A stretch of 64,000 nucleotides of DNA from Synechococcus sp. HK01-R. Lineage in GTDB: Bacteria; Cyanobacteriota; Cyanobacteriia; PCC-6307; Cyanobiaceae. The notes under the pieces are model-generated. The model was not told the origin of the DNA and ran no database searches. It was given only the letters and a program-made list of their open reading frames with translations. The stretch covers positions 682,001-746,000 of the forward strand of contig NZ_CP059059.1 of NCBI RefSeq assembly GCF_014217855.1, read 5' to 3'. This document shows positions 1,999-55,597 of this stretch, piece after piece. Every line of letters begins with the position of its first letter. The stretch's first letter is position 1. Made by a program: the position numbers and the translations under genes.

Positions 1999-3765
1999 TC
2001 ATTGACGCGGGCGCAGGCAGTACGGACATTCCAGCCAGACTTCCTGCAGTCCGCCACCACAACCGGCGCAGGTCAGGGTGCTCAGGGCCCGGGCGCGGCG
2101 TTCCGATTCGAGTCCGGCATCGGTGAGGATCATGCGTCCCACCTCCTCCAGGGTGGTGAGTCCTTGGCGCACCAGCTCCAGGCTGTAACCCAGCAGCGTT
2201 TGCATGCCGCTCTCCAGGGCGAGGCGCCGGATCACGTCCGTGGTTGCTCCCTTCGCCACGGCGGTGGCCAGGGTTTCATTCATGCGCAACACCTCATACA
2301 CACCAACCCGGCCGCGGTAGCCACTGCCCTGGCAATGGCCACAGGCGTTGCCGCTTCCGTCGTGGTGACGGGCGCGCACGAAGCGCACATCCGTTTCTCT
2401 GTGGGTGATGAGTCCGAAGCGCCCCAGTTCGTCGGTATCGGGCTGGTAAGGCTCGCAGCAGTGGCTGCAGACCCGGCGCAACAGGCGTTGGGACACGATG
2501 CCGATCAGGGAAGCGCTGACCATGAACGGTTCGACGCCCATTTCGCTGAGACGGGCGATCGCACTTGGGGCGTCATTGCAGTGCAGGGTGGTCAGCACGA
2601 GGTGTCCGGTGAGGGCGGCTTCGATGGCTGTTTTGGCGGTTTCCAGATCGCGCGTCTCCCCCACCAGCAGCACGTCCGGGTCTTGACGCATAAAGGCGCG
2701 CAGGGCGGTGCTGAAGTCGAATCCCTTGTCACGGTTGACCTGGCACTGGGTGATCCCAGGCAAGGTGTATTCAATGGGATCCTCCACCGTGGAGATGTTG
2801 ATCCCAGGGTCGTTCCGTTCCGCCAGTAGCGAATAGAGCGTCGTGGATTTACCCGATCCAGTTGGGCCAGTGACCAGGATCATCCCGAAGGGTTTGGAGC
2901 CGAGGCTGCGCACCAGTTGAAGGGCGTCAGCATCGGTGATCAGCTTGTCCAGCCCCAGCTGGGTGGCGCCGCTGTCGAGCAGCCGCAGGACGATCTTTTC
3001 CCCGAAGCGGCTCGGAAGGCTGTTGACCCGGAAATCAACGGTGCGCTTCTGGAAGCGTCGCCGAATGCGCCCATCCTGGGCCTGTCGGCGTTCGGCGATA
3101 TCTAAATCGGCCATGATTTTGAATCTTGAGGTCACTGCCGGCACAAGGCGACTCGGCAACGGTTCGCTGTAGCTCTGAAGCACGCCGTCCTGACGGAAGC
3201 GCACCTGAAGTCCGGCTTGCTGGGGCTCCACATGGATGTCACTGGCTTCCAGTTGCAGGGCCTGCAGCAGGATTCGGTTCACCAGATTTACGACCGGTGA
3301 GGCGTTGGTGTCTTGCAGGGTCTGCTCGAGGTCCTCGTGCAGGGCTGCCAGCCTCGCGGTTTCCTCGGGGTCTTCTTCCAGGACCCCCTCGGGATTGAAA
3401 TTTTCAAGCAGGGAAGGGCTGGCGGCTGGGTTGGACGCCGGTTCTGCGCTGAGGGCTGTTTCTCGGGAGGCTGTTTCTCGGGAGGCTGTTTCTCGGGAGA
3501 GCGCGCCCGTGATCACTGTGTCAGGGGTGTTGGCTTCAACAGTGCTCTGCGGTTCTTGGAGTGCCAGCCCTTGGAGCTCAAGCCCTTGGAGCAGCCTTGC
3601 CAGCTTTGGCTGGTTGAGGTCTAGTCCCTTGCGTTCGATCGCGTCCCGCAGGCGGGAGGCGCTGAGGGGTGTGGGCTGTTCCGGCAGCGGGATCTGCAGG
3701 AGCAACTCCAGTTCCAACCGTTGCCGAGTCGGTTCGGAATCGGAGGTTGATGCCTGCTCTTTCAT
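1999..3765 (-). CDS. pilB: Type IV pilus extension ATPase PilB (GspE family)
   Basis: Cytoplasmic motor ATPase that drives pilus polymerisation. The order is a variable N-terminal region, a GspE N2 domain ([20 protein letters not shown]), Walker [18 protein letters not shown], Walker [14 protein letters not shown], the His box TTLHCND, and a tetracysteine zinc site (CSHC ... CGHC) as in the family. At 588 residues it also ends in an additional zinc-ribbon-like pair (CAGC ... CPYC) that classical PilB lacks. The ATG at 3765 is preferred over an earlier in-frame start at 3840 because GGAG sits six bases before it. The N-terminal linker holds a threefold SRETA repeat. It is the first gene of the pil operon and is divergent from grpE. 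Confidence 0.93.
3455..3499. repeat. Three perfect 15-bp tandem repeats inside pilB
   Basis: The unit GCTGTTTCTCGGGAG occurs three times back to back. On the minus strand it encodes SRETA three times in the low-complexity linker of PilB. The unit length is a multiple of three, so copy-number change would alter linker length without breaking the frame. Confidence 0.9.
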
Positions 3766-3879
3766 GCTCGACTCCGCAGACGATGCACGGTGATGGGTCG
3801 GAGGTGCGGGCTTCCGCCGCTTGTGGGAGGCACGCCTCACCCTTCAACATGTCTAGACGTGAATTCGGTCCCGGTCAGC
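3766..3879. promoter_or_regulatory. Divergent pilB/grpE intergenic region
   Basis: This 114-bp gap lies between the divergently transcribed pilB and grpE genes, so promoters for both the pil operon and the grpE-dnaJ group are expected here. I could not assign convincing -35/-10 boxes or a CIRCE heat-shock operator by eye. The call rests on gene orientation only. Confidence 0.35.
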
Positions 3880-47073: not shown

Positions 47074-48297
47074 TCAGATCTCCCGCAGTGAGTCAGTCTT
47101 GCTGCGGAAGGTGTTGAGCAGCAGCTGCAGATAGCTGACGCTACGCAGCTTGATGTTGGCGGTGAGCGACATGCCCACCTGCAAGGGCAGGCTGCTGCCG
47201 TTCTTCAGCTTGAGTTGCTGGCTGTCGAGCTTGATCGTGGCCGGAAAGCGGTACTCCTGGCGGCCCTTCTGGGCGTCGGGGGCGAGGGCATCGGATCCCA
47301 CCGACGCCACACTGCCTTCCAGTACGCCGAAATCGGTGGCAGGGAAGGAATCAATGCTGATCTCGGCTGGTTGGCCCCTGCGCACGAAACCGATCTTGCT
47401 GCTGGGGATTTCCACATCGGCCTCGAGGGTGTTGAACGGCACCACCTTCAGGGCTGGTTCGCCAGTTTGGGCCACAAAGCCTGGCGTGGTGAGCTTGAGG
47501 TCGAACACCACTCCATCGACCGGGGCTCGCAGGGACTGGTAGCCGAGGGTCACCTCCGCCTGGGTGATCTGGGAGCGCAGCTGGGCCAGGTCGCTGCGCA
47601 GACCAGCGGTTTCGGCATTGATCTGTTCGATCTGCTGGTCAAGCACGCTTTGTTGGCGCCGGCCTTCCACCATCTCCTTGCTCACGCTGCCGCGCAGTTC
47701 CTCCACCTTGTTTTGCTGCTGCAGGTACTGCAGTTCTGAGGAGGCGCCTTCTTTGGCCAGTTTGGAGAGACGACTCAGGATCTTCTCTTCGAGGGCAAGA
47801 CGGGCCTTGAGGTTGCTGATCTGCTCACGGTTGATCTCGTTGCTCCGTGCCTTCTCCTGTTGCTTGAGCAGCAGTTGCTGTTGCTTCTGGGAGAGCTGCT
47901 GCTGCTTGAGGCGCTGGGATTCCTGGAGCGACTTCAGTTCTTGGCTGCTGCTCTTCTGATCGAGCTCGATCAGCACCTGGCCTTTCTTCACTCGGTCGCC
48001 ACCCTTCACCAGGATTGCCTTGACCACACCTCCGGACGGGATCTGAAGGTCTTTGACGTTGCCGACAGGCTCGAGTTTGCCCTGGGCTACCACCACCTCT
48101 TCGGTGCGGGCGATCGCCAGCCAGCCGATGCCGATCAACGTGGTGCCGACCAACCCCCAGGTGACGGAGCGCAGCCAGATGCGGTCCTGCTGAAGCACCG
48201 ATTCGTTGTGGGTGAGGGAACCGGCACGACGCTCGAGCTGATCCTGAGCCTTGCGGATTAAACCACCGATCGGGTTATTGGATTGGAACGGACTCAT
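47074..48297 (-). CDS. HlyD-family membrane fusion protein of a type I secretion system
   Basis: Periplasmic adaptor that links the inner-membrane ABC pump to an outer-membrane channel. The N-terminus is cytoplasmic, then one helix (WGLVGTTLIGIGWLAIARTE), a barrel-sandwich start (VEPVGNVKDLQIPSGGVVKAI), and long coiled coils rich in Gln and Lys (about residues 110-235). The second half of the barrel (LRAPVDGVVFDLKLTTPGFV) follows. The length is 407 residues. It lies 1 bp after the ABC transporter gene, so both are co-transcribed. A TolC-like partner is not in the window. Confidence 0.92.
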   Translation of the reverse strand: MSPFQSNNPIGGLIRKAQDQLERRAGSLTHNESVLQQDRIWLRSVTWGLVGTTLIGIGWLAIARTEEVVVAQGKLEPVGNVKDLQIPSGGVVKAILVKGGDRVKKGQVLIELDQKSSSQELKSLQESQRLKQQQLSQKQQQLLLKQQEKARSNEINREQISNLKARLALEEKILSRLSKLAKEGASSELQYLQQQNKVEELRGSVSKEMVEGRRQQSVLDQQIEQINAETAGLRSDLAQLRSQITQAEVTLGYQSLRAPVDGVVFDLKLTTPGFVAQTGEPALKVVPFNTLEADVEIPSSKIGFVRRGQPAEISIDSFPATDFGVLEGSVASVGSDALAPDAQKGRQEYRFPATIKLDSQQLKLKNGSSLPLQVGMSLTANIKLRSVSYLQLLLNTFRSKTDSLREI

Positions 48298-48298
48298 C

Positions 48299-51265
48299 TC
48301 AACCGGCCTCCTGCTGGCGATACAGCGCGTAGTAGCGACCCCGACGTTCCATCAGTTCGTCGTGACTGCCCACCTCGGCCACCACGCCCAGGTGCATGAC
48401 CACGATCAGGTCAGCCCGGCGCACGGTGGCGAGGCGGTGGGTGATGAAGAAAACGGTGCAGTCCTGCAGAGCTCCGACGAGGTTGTCGCAGACCCTTCGC
48501 TCGGTTTCGTAGTCGAGGGCGCTGGTGGCTTCATCCATCACCAGCAGCTTGGGGTTGCTCAGCAGGGTGCGGGCGATCGCGATCCGTTGCCGCTGTCCGC
48601 CGCTGAGGGAGGCTCCGCGTTCACCCACGGGGGTGCTGTAGCCATTGGGCAGACCCATGATGAAGTCGTGGGCATCGGCCAACTTTGCGGCCATCACGAT
48701 TTCGTCGCTGCCGGCATCGGGCTGGGTGAGCGCAATGTTGTCGCTGATCGAGCCAGAGAACAGCAGGGGGTCCTGGGGCACGATGCCGATCTGGCGGCGC
48801 AGGGAGTACAGCTCCACCTTGTCGATGTCGTAGCCATCGATCAGGATCCGACCCTCCTCGGGGGCGTACAGGCGGGGCAGCAATTTCATCAGGGTGCTCT
48901 TGCCGCTGCCGCTCTGGCCGACAATGCCCACAAAGGTGCCCGCCTTGACGTGCAGGTTCACGTCTTTGAGAACCGGATCCATATCGGGAAGGAAACGGAA
49001 GCTGAGGTTTTCGAAGCTCACGTCCCCCTCGATCGGAGGCAGGGGCACCTTGGCCTTGTCGAGGGCGTCGGATTCCTGGGGGGTGTCGATCACATCGGCG
49101 AGACGTTCGAAGCTCACCTTGAGCTCCTGGATGCTTTGCCAGATGCTGGAGAGGCGCAGCAGCGGCTGCGTCACGTAGCCGGAGATGATCCGGAAGGCGA
49201 TCAGCTGGCCGATGGTGAGTTCTCCGCTCAGCACCAGGGTGGCGCCGACCCAGAGCACCAGCAGCTGCGAGAGCTTTTGCAGCACCTGGGAGGTCTGGTT
49301 GAGGACGGTGCCGCTGATCGTTTTCTCGAACGAGCGGTTGATGTAGGTGGCATACAGCTCCTGCCAGGAGAAGCGACTCACCATCTCCACGTTTTGGCTC
49401 TTCACGGTCTGAATGCCGGTGAGCACTTCCACCAGATGGCTCTGGGTCTTGGCGTTGGCCTCCGCGGCTTGGCGGTACTGACGGCGGAATAAAGGCGCGC
49501 CGATCAGGGTGAGAGCGATCTGAATCGGCAGCACCGCCAGGGCAATCAGGGTGAGCAGCCAGCTGTAGACCACCATCACCACGATGTAAATCACCGAGAA
49601 GGCGGCATCGAGAAGCGTGGTGAGTGCCTGACCGGTCAGGAAGTTGCGGATCTTTTCGAGCTCGCTGATCCGGGAGCCCAGTTCACCGACGGGGCGTTTG
49701 TCGAAGTAGCCGAGTGGTAAACGGAGCAGGTGATCGATCACTTCGGCGCCGAGGCGTTGATCGATGCGGTTGGTCGTTTCCGAGAACAGGAACGTCTTGA
49801 GGCTGCCGAGCACTCCCTCCAGCAGGGTCACGGCCACGAGGGCAATCCCCAGCACCTGAAGGGTGTCGAGACTGCGCTGGCTGATCACCTTGTCGATGAT
49901 CACCTGGATCAGCAGGGGGTTGGCCAGGGCAAAGAGTTGCACCACGAAGCTGGCGATCAGCACCTGCACGAGCACGCCGCGGTAGCGGCGCAGGGCCGGC
50001 CAGAACCAGGAGGGTCCGAAGCTCTGGTTGAGGGTGGCGTTGGAGCGCTCCAGCAGCAGCACATCGAGGCCATCGGGGAAGGCGTCGTCCAGTTGCTCGG
50101 GAGCCAGTTCAACGATGCCGTCCCGGGGGGAGGCGAGGACGAGACCGCTTTGGTTGCTGCGTGCCACTAGGGCGAAGCTGCCCCCCCAGGGCACCAGGGT
50201 GGGAGTCTGCAGGCGGGTCCCCATGGCGGCGGCAACCCGGGCACCGGACACATGCAAGCCAAGGCCTGCGGCGATCTGGCCGCAGAGGCGCAGATTTGGT
50301 TCCTGCCCGCGGCGCGTCATCTCCCGCAGCACCTTTTCGATCGCATCGCGGCGGAAGGGCAGCTTCATGAGTTGCGCCAACATCTGGAAGCAGGCCAGGG
50401 TTTCCTGGAGCACGCCCTCGGCGCGGATCAGACGCAACTGATCGAGCAGGTCGGCATCGGGGCTGAAGCGGCTGACCGGTGCTGGACCCGCGGGAGTGGG
50501 GACCCGTGCACTGTTTGCCGCTTCTGTCGTCGTGGCAGTGAGCTCGCCGCTGCTGGCTGTTGCTTCGGCGCCCTGCGGTTCGCTGTTGGTGATCTGCTCA
50601 ACAAGAGCCGTTGGCAGACTGATGAGGCGTGCCGGGAACGGTTGGCTAGCGGGCGGCAGTGCCGATGGATTCAGGCGTTCACCTGGGGTGCAACCGGCCC
50701 AGGCCGAGGTCAGAAACACCTGGCGGTTCGATGTCTCTGCCTCTTGGATTGCTGCTGCATCGAGGGGCACCCTTCGGGCTTCTCGCAGGGCTTCTTGGAG
50801 CAGTTGTAGAGAGGTGTGGTCGGCCCGGGCGTTGCGCTCCTGCAGATCCTGAATCAGAGCGGTGGTTTCCGAGGCCCAGAGCTGGGCATCACACCAGCGG
50901 CGGAAGCTGTCTTCCTCTTGGTAGAGCTCGGCCCAGAGCTCATCGCTGATCGCTGCCGCGGTGAGTGAATCACTGGCGATCAGGTTTTCGACACCCCGAC
51001 CATTCATCAGGCTCGCCGCACCCAGCACAGCACCGGGCTCAAACTTGCCGAGGGAAAGAAGGCGACCTTGATCCTGGCCGACGAGTCGTGCGCGGCCCTG
51101 GATCAGGATCAGCACCCGCCCCGGAATGACGCCGGGTTCCACCAACTGCTGACCAAGCTCAAACGAGAGCAGTTGGGCCTGTTGGAGCACTCGCTCCTGG
51201 GCGGCTTTGCTCAGACAGCGGATCGCTTCCTGCCGGATCAGCTGGCCAACGGGTGTCTGGGTCAT
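48299..51265 (-). CDS. Type I secretion ABC transporter with cNMP-binding and inactive C39-like domains
   Basis: A 988-residue inner-membrane exporter. The order is a cNMP-binding-like domain (about residues 20-135), a linker, a C39-like domain (about 285-400), six-helix membrane domain, then ATPase with Walker A GQSGSGKSTLMKLL, signature LSGGQRQRIAIARTLL, Walker B LLVMDEATSALD and H-loop ITHRLATV. The C39-like domain lacks the catalytic Cys motif and the His (LVPWGGSFALV), so it should dock rather than cut its substrate. It overlaps the PPIase gene by 4 bp upstream, and hlyD follows. Confidence 0.9.
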   Translation of the reverse strand: MTQTPVGQLIRQEAIRCLSKAAQERVLQQAQLLSFELGQQLVEPGVIPGRVLILIQGRARLVGQDQGRLLSLGKFEPGAVLGAASLMNGRGVENLIASDSLTAAAISDELWAELYQEEDSFRRWCDAQLWASETTALIQDLQERNARADHTSLQLLQEALREARRVPLDAAAIQEAETSNRQVFLTSAWAGCTPGERLNPSALPPASQPFPARLISLPTALVEQITNSEPQGAEATASSGELTATTTEAANSARVPTPAGPAPVSRFSPDADLLDQLRLIRAEGVLQETLACFQMLAQLMKLPFRRDAIEKVLREMTRRGQEPNLRLCGQIAAGLGLHVSGARVAAAMGTRLQTPTLVPWGGSFALVARSNQSGLVLASPRDGIVELAPEQLDDAFPDGLDVLLLERSNATLNQSFGPSWFWPALRRYRGVLVQVLIASFVVQLFALANPLLIQVIIDKVISQRSLDTLQVLGIALVAVTLLEGVLGSLKTFLFSETTNRIDQRLGAEVIDHLLRLPLGYFDKRPVGELGSRISELEKIRNFLTGQALTTLLDAAFSVIYIVVMVVYSWLLTLIALAVLPIQIALTLIGAPLFRRQYRQAAEANAKTQSHLVEVLTGIQTVKSQNVEMVSRFSWQELYATYINRSFEKTISGTVLNQTSQVLQKLSQLLVLWVGATLVLSGELTIGQLIAFRIISGYVTQPLLRLSSIWQSIQELKVSFERLADVIDTPQESDALDKAKVPLPPIEGDVSFENLSFRFLPDMDPVLKDVNLHVKAGTFVGIVGQSGSGKSTLMKLLPRLYAPEEGRILIDGYDIDKVELYSLRRQIGIVPQDPLLFSGSISDNIALTQPDAGSDEIVMAAKLADAHDFIMGLPNGYSTPVGERGASLSGGQRQRIAIARTLLSNPKLLVMDEATSALDYETERRVCDNLVGALQDCTVFFITHRLATVRRADLIVVMHLGVVAEVGSHDELMERRGRYYALYRQQEAG

Positions 51266-51969
51266 GACGCAGAACCGTCGCTGTTAGCCTGAAGCGCGCC
51301 CAATGTACGGGAGGTTACCTGCTTCACCCACTCCTGAAGCAATTCCATGCTCATTTGATCGGCCATCCGTTCATCGAACGTGGCTGGTGCGAAGCGTTCG
51401 AGCCGGGCAACCACCCACCAGCGGTCCACGCTGAAGGGTTCGAGCAGGGCACCTGGCTTGGCGGCTCGCAATTTCTCCGAGAGCACTGGATGGGATTGAT
51501 TCAGGGGCACCGGCCCCACGACGCCGTTGGTGTTGCGCTCTGTGCCTTGAGAGAAGCGAGCTGCCAACTCGCTGAAATCGGCTTCTCCATGGGCGATGCG
51601 CAGATAGAGCTCCTGGGCCTGGGAGCGTCTGTTCAGCCGAAGAAGGCTGTAAACCACACGGTCCAACCGGTTTTTTTCCACGAGGAAACGGGCTTCGGCT
51701 TTGGCGCCGAACTGGTCTCGCGCGAGACGACTCATGCGCAGTGGTCGTTCGATCACGTCGCTGGGCACGGCGTCGGCGGTGATCCCCTGCTGGCGGGCGT
51801 AGGCCTCCGTTGCAGCCGCCAGCGCTTCAGGGTCGGGCTGGATGTCTCGGATCAGTTCGCTAACCAGCATTCGTTCGATCAGGGCTTCGAGCAGGTTGTG
51901 CTCGCGGAGGAGATCGAGCCCCGCACCACCGATCAGTAGCTGCAGATCGGGAAGGGTTGGGTTAAGCAC
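51262..51969 (-). CDS. PpiC/SurA-type peptidyl-prolyl isomerase of the secretion operon
   Basis: A 235-residue protein from GTG at 51969, with a helical N-terminal part and a parvulin domain in the second half (RIAHGEADFSELAARFSQGT, then NGVVGPVPLNQSHP and LLEPFSVDRWWVVARLERF). No signal peptide is visible, so it should be cytoplasmic, unlike SurA. It is translationally coupled (4-bp overlap, ATGA) to the ABC exporter. It could keep the cargo unfolded before export; that role is inference. A longer open frame upstream is antisense to the sulfotransferase gene and was not used. Confidence 0.8.
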   Translation of the reverse strand: MLNPTLPDLQLLIGGAGLDLLREHNLLEALIERMLVSELIRDIQPDPEALAAATEAYARQQGITADAVPSDVIERPLRMSRLARDQFGAKAEARFLVEKNRLDRVVYSLLRLNRRSQAQELYLRIAHGEADFSELAARFSQGTERNTNGVVGPVPLNQSHPVLSEKLRAAKPGALLEPFSVDRWWVVARLERFAPATFDERMADQMSMELLQEWVKQVTSRTLGALQANSDGSAS

Positions 51970-52966
51970 GCCAGAGTCTGATCTGGGCGAACAATACTCA
52001 GCACAATCGGTCTTGCTTGCGATGGGTCGCGTGCAGCCACCCTTGATCTTGTTGCTGGGGATGCATCGCAGCGGCACCTCCCTGTTAGCGGGTCTCCTGC
52101 AGCGGTTGGGGGTGGCGCTGCCAGGCACCTTGATCGCCGCCGACGCCCACAACCCCTCGGGGTATTTCGAGTGGCGGGAGGTGGTGGATCTGCAGGAGCA
52201 GTTGCTGATGGATCTGGAGCGCTGGTGGCCCGCGGCGGAGGGACTGCGTCCCTTGCCGGAGGGCTGGCTCGACCATCCAGCAACACGAGCGGCAGCCGCG
52301 CAGTTGCAGCGTTTGCTCAGTGTGGAACAGGCGCGCCAGCAGGGCCCATGGCTGATCAAGGATCCACGGAGCTCACGGCTGCTGCCTCTCTGGCTTGGCT
52401 TGGCTGCGGCCCTGGAGCTGCCTCTGCACCTGGTGCTGTCGATCCGAGATCCGGCGGAGGTGGTCACGTCACTCATGCGTCGCGATCGGGTGGCGACGGG
52501 GATGGATGCGTTGCGCGCCCAGCGGCTTTGGTGGTTGCACAACCAGGAGGTGCTGGCGGCACTGCCGCCAGGCCAGGCGCTGACGTTCGTTGATTACAGC
52601 GCTTGGTTCAGCTCTCCGGAGCAGCAGCTCGAGCGCCTGCTGACGGCTCTACCCGAGCTACAGCCAAGGGAAGAGCAACGGTTGCAGGCCCTGGCTCTGA
52701 TCGATCCACGCCTGCAGCGCAGTGGACGCACGCCGCTCCAGGCCAGGGCTTTGGATGAACCGATTGAGGCGGGGTGTCGCCGTTTGCTGGCAGGGGCGCG
52801 GTCGCTGCAGCCCTGGCCTGGAGCAAGGATTCCGTCGCTGGAGCAGCAGGATCCAGAGTTTGCTGCTGGCGATCTGGCAGATCCCCATGGATGGCAAGCC
52901 TGGTGCGACCGGCATCACAGCTGGCCAGCCCCCCGCCGCCATCCGCCCTTGCCTGTGGGCAATTGT

Positions 52967-53006
52967 GTGCATGTGCATGTGCATGTGCATGTGCATGTGC
53001 ATGTGC
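52967..53006 (+). repeat. Hexanucleotide (GTGCAT)6 array
   Basis: Six perfect GTGCAT units at 52967-53002 plus a partial GTGC. In the sulfotransferase frame it reads (Val-His)6. The alternative reading frame gives Cys-Met repeats and soon stops. Hexamer changes keep frame. Confidence 0.95.
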
Positions 53007-53129
53007 TAGGGCGTTCCCGCTGGAAACCGCGCCTTGGACGCTGGCTCAGACGGTTACCGCTCAGCGTTTGCCCTGAAGCATCAACGCGGCGGATAGCTCT
53101 GAACTTTTCCGTGCCCGCTCCAGCAGCGG

Positions 53130-53151
53130 CGCAGCAGTGGCGCAGCAGTGG
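53130..53151 (+). repeat. 11-bp tandem duplication that breaks the reading frame
   Basis: CGCAGCAGTGG occurs twice in direct succession at 53130-53140 and 53141-53151. Deleting one copy restores a continuous frame into a plausible protein continuation, so the duplication is the likely cause of the frameshift. Confidence 0.9.
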
Positions 53152-53347
53152 CAGCAACAACTGGCGCAGGCGGAGCTGATCTGGGACCCGGATCCATCCC
53201 GGGTGCGGCTGCTGCGCGCCCTTGGTTATCCCGCCTACTGGTTGGATCCAGCGGCTCCGCCTCACCGATGTCCGCGTCGATCTCTTAGGCCGTTCTTTAA
53301 GTCAAAGGGCCACCGATTCTTCAGAATCCGCAGCAGCGAACCGGGCT

Positions 53348-53752
53348 TCAGCAGTTGTGATCCCGAGTCGTGAGCTCAGCTTCATTCGCCACCACGATCT
53401 TGGTGCCGTCGGCGTTGAAGCTGAGGGAGTCGGGAAGGGTGCCCACCACCACGTTGCCGATGTTGCGGATCTTGGTGCTTGAGCCGTTGCCGCTCAGCTT
53501 GTAGAAGACCACCAGGCCAGCGTCTTCCCGGGATTCCTTGCCGGCGATCGCCACGGCAGCCAGGTCACCATTCACGGTGACGCTCTGGGCATCGCCATCG
53601 AGGGTGTAGCTCTTCACCAGCTTCGGGGAGCTGGGGTTGGAGAGGTTCACTACGGCCAGCTGATTGCCACCGGTGATCACCAGGGCGACCTTGTGGTCTG
53701 CGGCGTAAGAGACGATTTCGGCGCCGCCGAGGTCGATGGAAACTGTGGCCAT
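53348..53752 (-). pseudogene. N-terminal remnant of a beta-propeller exoprotein (choice-of-anchor I-like)
   Basis: A 134-residue frame starting MATVSIDLGGAEIVSYAADH, then GGNQLAVVNLSNPSSPKLV and LPDSLSFNADGTKIVVANEAE, which follow the repeating beta-propeller pattern of choice-of-anchor I / alkaline-phosphatase-like exoproteins. The pattern stops abruptly after VANEAE and a short nonsense tail ends the frame. No signal peptide is present, as expected of type I secretion cargo, whose signal is C-terminal and would be lost here. It probably is the head of a lost cargo gene of the adjacent exporter; this is inference. Confidence 0.6.
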
Positions 53753-54004: not shown

Positions 54005-54586
54005 CTACAGCCTGTAGCGGAGCAGGAAGGGGCTGAGATCCATGGTGCTTGGCTCCGGTTGAGCGTCCTGGTGCATCACAACCTCCTGCTCTGGGGTGGG
54101 CTCTAGGGGTTCGCTGCGCGTGCTTCTGGATTGACCTGTTGACGGAGAGTCCAGCCACGGGGTGGCAGCCATGACACCGATGGCTGACGGTTGCAGGTGG
54201 CTCGTAGCGGCATCGGCGCTCAGGAATGGATCTTGGATTAGGGCGTGTGACTGCTCTTTGCTGACACTGGCTGTGGCTGCAGGAAGGCAGCGCTCGAAGC
54301 CTTGCTCAGCCAGCTCTCGAAGGGTCTCCGGTGGCTGGCAGCTCAGCACCCGCTGGTAGTGAGCCTCAGCCGCCGCTGGATCCTGGAAGCCATGGAACTC
54401 GATGTGGCCCAGCAGCAGTGAGAGCACAGCTCGCCAAGCGATCAGGGCCTCGTCGGAACGACCCTCCGCTTCCGCTGTATTGAGTTCGTCCAGAAGGGTG
54501 GTGCTCAGATCCTTCGCCTGGGGATAGTTCCCTTCCCCATAGGCCTGTTCGGCGCTCAGGTAGCGCTGCTGAAAGTCGGCATCCAA
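54005..54586 (-). CDS. Hypothetical protein downstream of tilS
   Basis: A 193-residue protein. The N-terminal half is helical and TPR-like (YLSAEQAYGEGNYPQAKDL, LLGHIEFHGFQDPAAAEAHY), and the C-terminal half is Ser/Pro/Glu-rich and probably disordered. I recognise no named family. It starts 6 bp after the tilS stop on the same strand, so it is part of the tilS transcript and probably belongs to the conserved chromosome rather than the accessory block. Confidence 0.65.
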   Translation of the reverse strand: MDADFQQRYLSAEQAYGEGNYPQAKDLSTTLLDELNTAEAEGRSDEALIAWRAVLSLLLGHIEFHGFQDPAAAEAHYQRVLSCQPPETLRELAEQGFERCLPAATASVSKEQSHALIQDPFLSADAATSHLQPSAIGVMAATPWLDSPSTGQSRSTRSEPLEPTPEQEVVMHQDAQPEPSTMDLSPFLLRYRL

Positions 54587-54592
54587 GGCGGT

Positions 54593-55597
54593 TCAGGGGC
54601 GCTGTTCCAGTTGTAGGGCGTCTGCACGCCAGTGGATCCTCCAGCCTGCGCTCAGATCGCGGCCAGCGGCGGGGCTGCCGGTCGCTGTCGCTTGGGCCAG
54701 CTCTTCCAGTTGGGAGGCGGTGAGCGGTGGCACCCCCCTGACCCGCAGCCAGTGGGCCAGCAGGGTGCGGCGGGTTTCGAGCGGGAGGCTGCCGAAACGG
54801 CGGCGGTCGAGAGATCCCTCCGTCACGCTCAGGTGCTCCAGGGCCAAAGCGTTCAGGCTCGCTTGGGTGTCCTGCAGTTGGGACATCCGCTCCGCCAGCT
54901 CCGCCAGTCGACCGCTGCAGCCCGGGTGCAATTGCTCCAGCACCGGCAGCACCTCGGCGCGAATGCGATTGCGGGCATAGGCCGGATCCCGGTTGCTGGG
55001 GTCGTCCCAGATCGGCAGCGCCAGCTCGCTGCAGACCCTGGCGGTGTCGGCGCGGCTGAAGTCCCGTAGGGGACGGATCAGCTGCAGATCGCTTCCCTCG
55101 AAAAGTCTTCGGCTGTGGCGTTGGCTGCCCAGCCCGGCAAGATCACTGCCGCGGGCCAGTTGCAGCAGCAGGGTTTCGGCTCGGTCACTGGCGGTGTGCG
55201 CGCTGATCACGATCTGGCAGGGGTGGTGGGGGTAGAGGCCGCTGAGCCGTTCGGCTTCGGCGGCGAGTGCGCCATAACGCCAAGCTCGGGCACCGGCTTC
55301 GCTGCGCTCAGGGTTCTCCAACGCGGCACGCCCTACAGCCAGATCCAGACCCTGAGCACTGCACCAGGTCTGCAGTTCCTGAGCGATTTGGCTGGATCCC
55401 GCATGCCAGCTGTGGTCGCCATGCCAGAGATGCAGCTGCCAGTGATGCAGAGGCTGCAGGCCCCGCAGGAGGGCCAGCAGGGCCATCGAGTCTTGGCCAC
55501 CGGAGAGGGCCAGCAGCAAACGGCTGCCCCGGGGGAGCATCGCCGGCTGTGCCAGGAGCCGGCGATGCAGGCGGTCGTGCCAGGGAGTCCAGCCCAT
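54593..55597 (-). CDS. tilS: tRNA(Ile)-lysidine synthase TilS
   Basis: Modifies C34 of the tRNA-Ile CAU anticodon to lysidine so that it reads AUA. The PP-loop ATP motif is LLLALSGGQDSMALLALL. HLWHGDHSWHAGS, ISAHTASDRAETLLLQLARG, and SNRDPAYARNRIRAEVLPVL are TilS-typical. The length is 334 residues, which fits short cyanobacterial forms. It is divergent from ycf23 and followed by the hypothetical gene at 54005. Confidence 0.94.
   Translation of the reverse strand: MGWTPWHDRLHRRLLAQPAMLPRGSRLLLALSGGQDSMALLALLRGLQPLHHWQLHLWHGDHSWHAGSSQIAQELQTWCSAQGLDLAVGRAALENPERSEAGARAWRYGALAAEAERLSGLYPHHPCQIVISAHTASDRAETLLLQLARGSDLAGLGSQRHSRRLFEGSDLQLIRPLRDFSRADTARVCSELALPIWDDPSNRDPAYARNRIRAEVLPVLEQLHPGCSGRLAELAERMSQLQDTQASLNALALEHLSVTEGSLDRRRFGSLPLETRRTLLAHWLRVRGVPPLTASQLEELAQATATGSPAAGRDLSAGWRIHWRADALQLEQRP

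Follow-up and report, generated by a model that had tools for sequence, protein, structure and literature searches.

Results

Organization of the locus

The window, i.e. the whole stretch of 64,000 nucleotides from Synechococcus sp. HK01-R analysed here, contains a pair of convergent genes, each without its 3' end, and their flanks hold type I secretion genes, a peptidyl-prolyl isomerase (PPIase) gene, a gene with a weak TPR match (TPR gene) and a presumed tilS (Table 1). The plus-strand gene had been described preliminarily as a sulfotransferase-type gene, and this assignment is borne out by its PF13469 match of 29.2 bits (cut-off 27). In its two-domain form, the gene probably served glycan modification. 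None of the titles listed by a literature search deals with this locus, and a promoter and terminator scan yielded no more than chance. Inside the sulfotransferase gene there is also a perfect 16-nt inverted repeat (52735-52750 and 52809-52824) with a 58-nt spacer.

Table 1. Coordinates of the features at the locus and in its flanks
Feature	Position	Strand	Description
Type I secretion pair	47074..51265	-	HlyD-like, 47074-48297; ABC transporter, 48299-51265
PPIase gene	51262..51969	-	PF00639; divergent neighbour
Truncated ST-GT2 gene	52022..53179	+	385 codons, ATG at 52022 to the stop behind the duplication, covering the sulfotransferase domain and a portion of the middle region; from ORF, PF13469 and homologs
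Hexamer array, TGTGCA x 6.8	52966..53006	+	Codes for (His-Val)n in frame; sits in a degenerated stretch
Degenerate CAG-rich period-11 array	53121..53169	+	Holds the duplication; Tandem Repeats Finder, 4.3 copies, 82% matches
Exact tandem duplication, 2 x 11 bp (CGCAGCAGTGG)	53130..53151	+	+11 frameshift relative to homologs
40 codons in the other frame	53140..53259	+	Match the middle region of intact homologs; end of homology
Apparent scar	53260..about 53350-53370	.	Roughly 90-110 bp without recognisable homology between the two genes lacking 3' ends; from six-frame comparison and match ends
N-terminal fragment, choice-of-anchor-I / LVIVD protein	53348..53752	-	134 codons; from family matches and relatives' frames
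TPR gene and presumed tilS	54005..55597	-	TPR (weak, sub-threshold match), 54005-54586; tilS, 54593-55597; flank fixing the locus in relatives

The ST-GT2 family

Proteins of this family have a layout of about 840 residues, composed of the sulfotransferase domain, a middle region and a GT2 glycosyltransferase, and the window gene represents the front half. An intact paralog is located in the same genome about 56 kb away (at about G000:C1:791594-794107), with 56% identity over some 300 residues and 65% identity over 215 columns of the sulfotransferase domain. Outside this genome, G013 and G004 have the best matches (55% over about 300 residues), and G030 has a short piece with 64% identity to residues 12-96 of the window gene. 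The paralog and the G013 and G004 genes encode 837-849 residues with a C-terminal GT2 domain (PF00535), which was present in all five homologs scanned.

No near strain with an intact copy was found in the genus search of 31 genomes, own included, 12 of which had a match, and a scan of genome contigs with the translated window segment 52025-52930 confirmed nothing. The second contig scan (alignment A2) gave 25 loci, from which 10 picocyanobacterial ones were compared and 15 short-stretch matches were set aside. Altogether, 20 sulfotransferase-domain matches fall in the 19 stronger homologous loci (L027-L035 and L065-L074, leaving out the weaker L010-L018 and L021-L026), and 16 of them share one open frame of 824-1117 codons with a GT2 domain, the frame agreement being derived from coordinates. 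The four exceptions are a distant minus-strand gene of G026 (L034), a 115-codon fragment in G030 (L035) and two loci from Prochlorococcus single-cell genomes (L071 and L072). None of the 20 matches ends at the stop corresponding to 53179, the sole shorter one being the G030 fragment; a natural stop at this position was therefore rejected, and the refuting condition named in the preliminary description, homologs that normally end there, did not occur among these matches.

Two of these exceptions deserve description in their own right. In L071 and L072, where the sulfotransferase frames comprise 782 and 795 codons, GT2 is matched in a different frame, i.e. the genes are split or carry frameshifts. 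The G030 fragment (L035:9367-9675, on G030:C7) is a second truncated homolog, a 102-aa ORF in the 115-codon open frame; the ORF after it resembles, by eye, the glycosyltransferase-like ORF behind the intact paralog of the window's own genome.

Duplication and repeat arrays

Direct sequence comparison demonstrates that positions 53130-53140 and 53141-53151 are the same letter for letter, and the period-11 identity spans 25 bases (53128-53152). The sequence and the coordinates of the duplication as first described are thus exact, and the ORF confirms that the two-copy frame terminates at 53179. The surrounding CAG-rich period-11 array is likely to be a substrate for slippage.

Exact tandem duplications with two full copies appear in the window as four rows that represent three distinct arrays, the hexamer array being entered at periods 12 and 18. 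This is more than chance, since 60 dinucleotide-preserving shuffles gave a mean of 0.15 for periods 10-60 and 0.03 for periods 11-60, with a maximum of 1 either way. Two of the three arrays, the 11-mer and the hexamer, are located within 190 bp in the 3' part of the same gene. The hexamer array is a perfect repeat with the highest copy number among the Tandem Repeats Finder rows of the window, and the (His-Val)n that it encodes is absent from the four intact homologs aligned with the window gene. Elsewhere, at 3454-3499, a perfect 15-bp unit is repeated 3.1 times in the minus-strand ORF 1999-3840, which we take to be a type II secretion or pilus ATPase; it encodes a repeated SRETA motif with the frame kept.

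Reading frame behind the duplication

The two frames were aligned as separate stretches with nothing removed. The upstream frame aligns with the homologs up to AQQW, and the downstream frame starts with AQQW too on the same homolog columns, W394 of the paralog being aligned by both. The own paralog and the G013, G004 and G026 proteins are all gapless across the 40 codons that follow. Because the homologs align gaplessly in frame beyond the second copy, the duplication represents a genuine +11 insertion. According to the preliminary description, the other frame runs into AQAELIWDPDPSRVRLLRAL and PAYWLDPA as part of a sensible protein; it does so, and it is homologous to real proteins, with 24 of 40 residues identical to the own paralog without a gap. 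Read with one copy, the gene would yield about 40 conserved residues and then a non-homologous tail to a stop at 53373.

To what extent this stretch has decayed can be judged from the substitutions. Over the 40 codons, the window and the paralog differ at 13, 11 and 22 first, second and third codon positions, respectively, compared with 16, 10 and 21 for the paralog and G013. Pointing the other way, the window differs from the four homologs at 10-14 second positions versus 6-12 in intact pairs, and residue identities amount to 20-24 of 40 versus 22-32. These values are suggestive, though not strong for only 40 codons, of a stretch that may have kept its frame up to a fairly recent time, under constraint that was perhaps somewhat relaxed.

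Missing C-terminal half

Homology ends at 53259, and the remaining approximately 400 residues of the family protein, including GT2, are absent at the locus. Six-frame comparison gave nothing convincing as a continuation of either gene inside 53260-53370, with weak matches alone among those listed. When the C-terminal part of the paralog was compared with its own genome, the six matches comprised the paralog, a 30-residue stub at the present locus and four GT2-like places of weaker similarity. Relocation of the missing half within the genome was rejected, as this search gave no close copy. The DNA of 52900-53420, searched against its own genome, matched itself alone. Because the two convergent genes both lack 3' ends and the 90-110 bp between them are unassignable, a deletion scar is the best reading of this segment.

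Minus-strand fragment and neighbourhood

The minus-strand fragment matches profile positions 13-125 of 489 in PF22494 with 20.5 bits, below the cut-off of 32, and its LVIVD repeat scores above cut-off. Of 60 genomes searched, the own among them, 17 had a match; the 11 matches from other genomes to which loci were assigned have open frames of 707-1883 codons, and the matches stop between residues 126 and 134 of the fragment. The relative in G010 combines choice-of-anchor-I, phytase-like and 5'-nucleotidase C parts with RTX calcium-binding repeats, a make-up that is that of type I secretion cargo. The full minus-strand gene therefore probably encoded a large choice-of-anchor-I, RTX-type protein, and the neighbouring type I secretion pair may have served it.

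In G008, G012, G015 and G019, the gene order is HlyD, ABC, PPIase, TPR and tilS. The gap between the PPIase and TPR matches is 239-403 bp in these genomes versus 2035 bp in the window, where it houses both remnants; the short gaps have no significant similarity to the window insert (best E 0.057). The ABC and tilS genes most similar to those of the window (88% and 72%) belong to G018 and G028, in which the secretion genes lie elsewhere. There, the PPIase gene is followed by ORFs that we take from sequence to be ribH-like and acetyltransferase-like, with a presumably SecA-like gene next in G018, and the TPR gene adjoins a gene presumed to be RNase J-like. The HlyD-ABC-PPIase cluster at 47074-51969 has the RNase J-like gene on one side and TPR/tilS on the other, and ribH-like neighbours in G018 and G028 (L056-L062 compared). 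This cluster seems to have moved.

The comparison of the locus among relatives therefore suggests that this lineage acquired both genes between PPIase and TPR and later lost parts of them, a probable history whose direction and order we infer. An intact version of this very locus was not found among the genomes searched.

Discussion

Taken together, the locus is probably an ordinary decaying gene remnant and not a reversible switch. We propose that an ST-GT2 fusion gene on the plus strand and a convergent choice-of-anchor-I gene on the minus strand once stood between PPIase and TPR, beside the type I secretion cluster. As the anatomy suggests, a deletion or rearrangement would have taken the 3' parts of both genes and left the scar from 53260 to about 53370; no deletion intermediate was found. 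Slipped-strand mispairing on the pre-existing CAG-rich, period-11 imperfect repeat would have produced the 11-bp duplication, which is apparently recent, as its downstream frame has kept a resemblance to protein. The duplication is one of several lesions in a gene reduced to its front half.

The preliminary description attributed inactivation of the gene to the duplication. Relative to the intact homologs, the lesions are the +11 insertion and the missing C-terminal half, and they gather in the 3' part, behind the domain boundary. Where the three closest homologs are invariant, the window keeps 107 of 125 positions within the domain, 16 of 22 in the stretch that follows and 7 of 25 at paralog residues 307-395 (8 being gaps), although this last region is less conserved in intact homologs too, the three closest being 40-49% identical among themselves and 23-30% to the window. 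The duplication is indeed an insertion that shifts the frame with respect to the compared homologs, but inactivation by this event alone is not supported, since the GT2 half is missing too, and the 385-aa product, whose sulfotransferase domain is well conserved, may even be active.

It is conceivable, although we regard it as rather unlikely, that the 385-aa product has been retained as a stand-alone sulfotransferase whose N-terminal domain works after the loss of GT2, with decay restricted to the tail, i.e. to the His-Val repeat and the 11-bp duplication. The conservation of the domain is consistent with such a product. Apart from the PF13469 score above cut-off, the domain has no stop or frameshift within the ORF, and it keeps 73 of 78 positions that are invariant in seven homologs, where leave-one-out controls gave 78 of 79-84 for each homolog. 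The end branch of the sulfotransferase domain, at 0.40 changes per column, is the longest, though not strikingly so, against 0.17, 0.37 and 0.31 in its clade mates, whose inner order is unsupported. This small excess of decay suggests that the truncated product may still work.

Moreover, the open frames of nine weaker relatives are no longer than 337-419 codons, one of them being interrupted by a stop and another lying on a 3.7-kb contig, and short sulfotransferases of such a kind may therefore exist. Against this stand the close homologs, which are long, with GT2 in frame with the sulfotransferase domain in 16 of the 20 matches. A recent truncation without any selection would look alike, and neither the 31-genome genus search nor the contig scan found a close relative for measuring selection. 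To judge from the sequence, the conservation data fit a pseudogene of recent origin as well as a single-domain enzyme that was retained. A bolder form of the same thought is that a new single-domain enzyme has been born here, the sulfotransferase of a halved ST-GT2 being in use beside the intact paralog while repeats reshape its new C-terminal tail and leave the catalytic domain untouched; we consider this quite doubtful.

An assembly or sequencing artefact, in which the organism does not have the duplication, appears very improbable. Gain of a whole 11-bp unit is atypical of read errors, and the independent lesions in the same gene are not explained by an artefact, even though one survey expects sequencing errors to account for most frameshifts that BLASTP supports in a single genome (PMC3711429). 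An artefact would in any case be compatible with the remnant reading, as the missing half would remain missing.

The slow, reversible phase switch proposed in the preliminary description, in which slippage gains or loses the 11-mer and turns the protein on or off, is extremely improbable and was rejected as the main reading, since the GT2 half is absent in whichever frame and reverting the duplication would therefore not restore the protein of the family. In its favour, the unit has a length not divisible by three and occurs within coding sequence; the literature also states that phase variation commonly targets surface structures such as the capsule (PMC3711429) and that recombination of tandem duplications is a recognised route of localised hypermutation (PMC4235727). 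However, the one-copy state would have a non-homologous run to its stop in place of GT2, the unit is present in two copies compared with five or more in the tetranucleotide tracts described in the latter source (PMC4235727), and length does not vary among the four homologs, which align at the site without gaps.

The locus shows that a frame-restoring change seen in raw sequence does not by itself justify calling a switch; a whole protein has to result from the restored frame. It further provides a good example of probable gene decay next to type I secretion genes in a picocyanobacterium with a small genome.

Among known systems, the closest are the ST-GT2 fusions of picocyanobacteria (PF13469 plus PF00535), which have the same N-terminal sulfotransferase domain and the same middle region up to WLDPAAP; the window copy differs from them in the absent GT2 half, in a middle region shortened with the (His-Val)n array, and in the +11 frameshift. 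Contingency loci, i.e. those with simple-sequence-repeat phase variation, are alike in having a non-triplet unit inside a gene that probably modifies glycans, whereas the present locus has two copies only, no complete ON state and no variation at the site in four homologs. Phase variation of pneumococcal cap3A resembles it in the short tandem duplication within an open reading frame; these duplications are reversible, and the reverted cap3A gene is complete, unlike here. Ordinary bacterial pseudogenes with short indels and a deletion share the homology-supported frameshift, the missing domain, the 3'-clustered lesions and the truncated neighbour, and the window gene departs from them in that its N-terminal domain is still intact.
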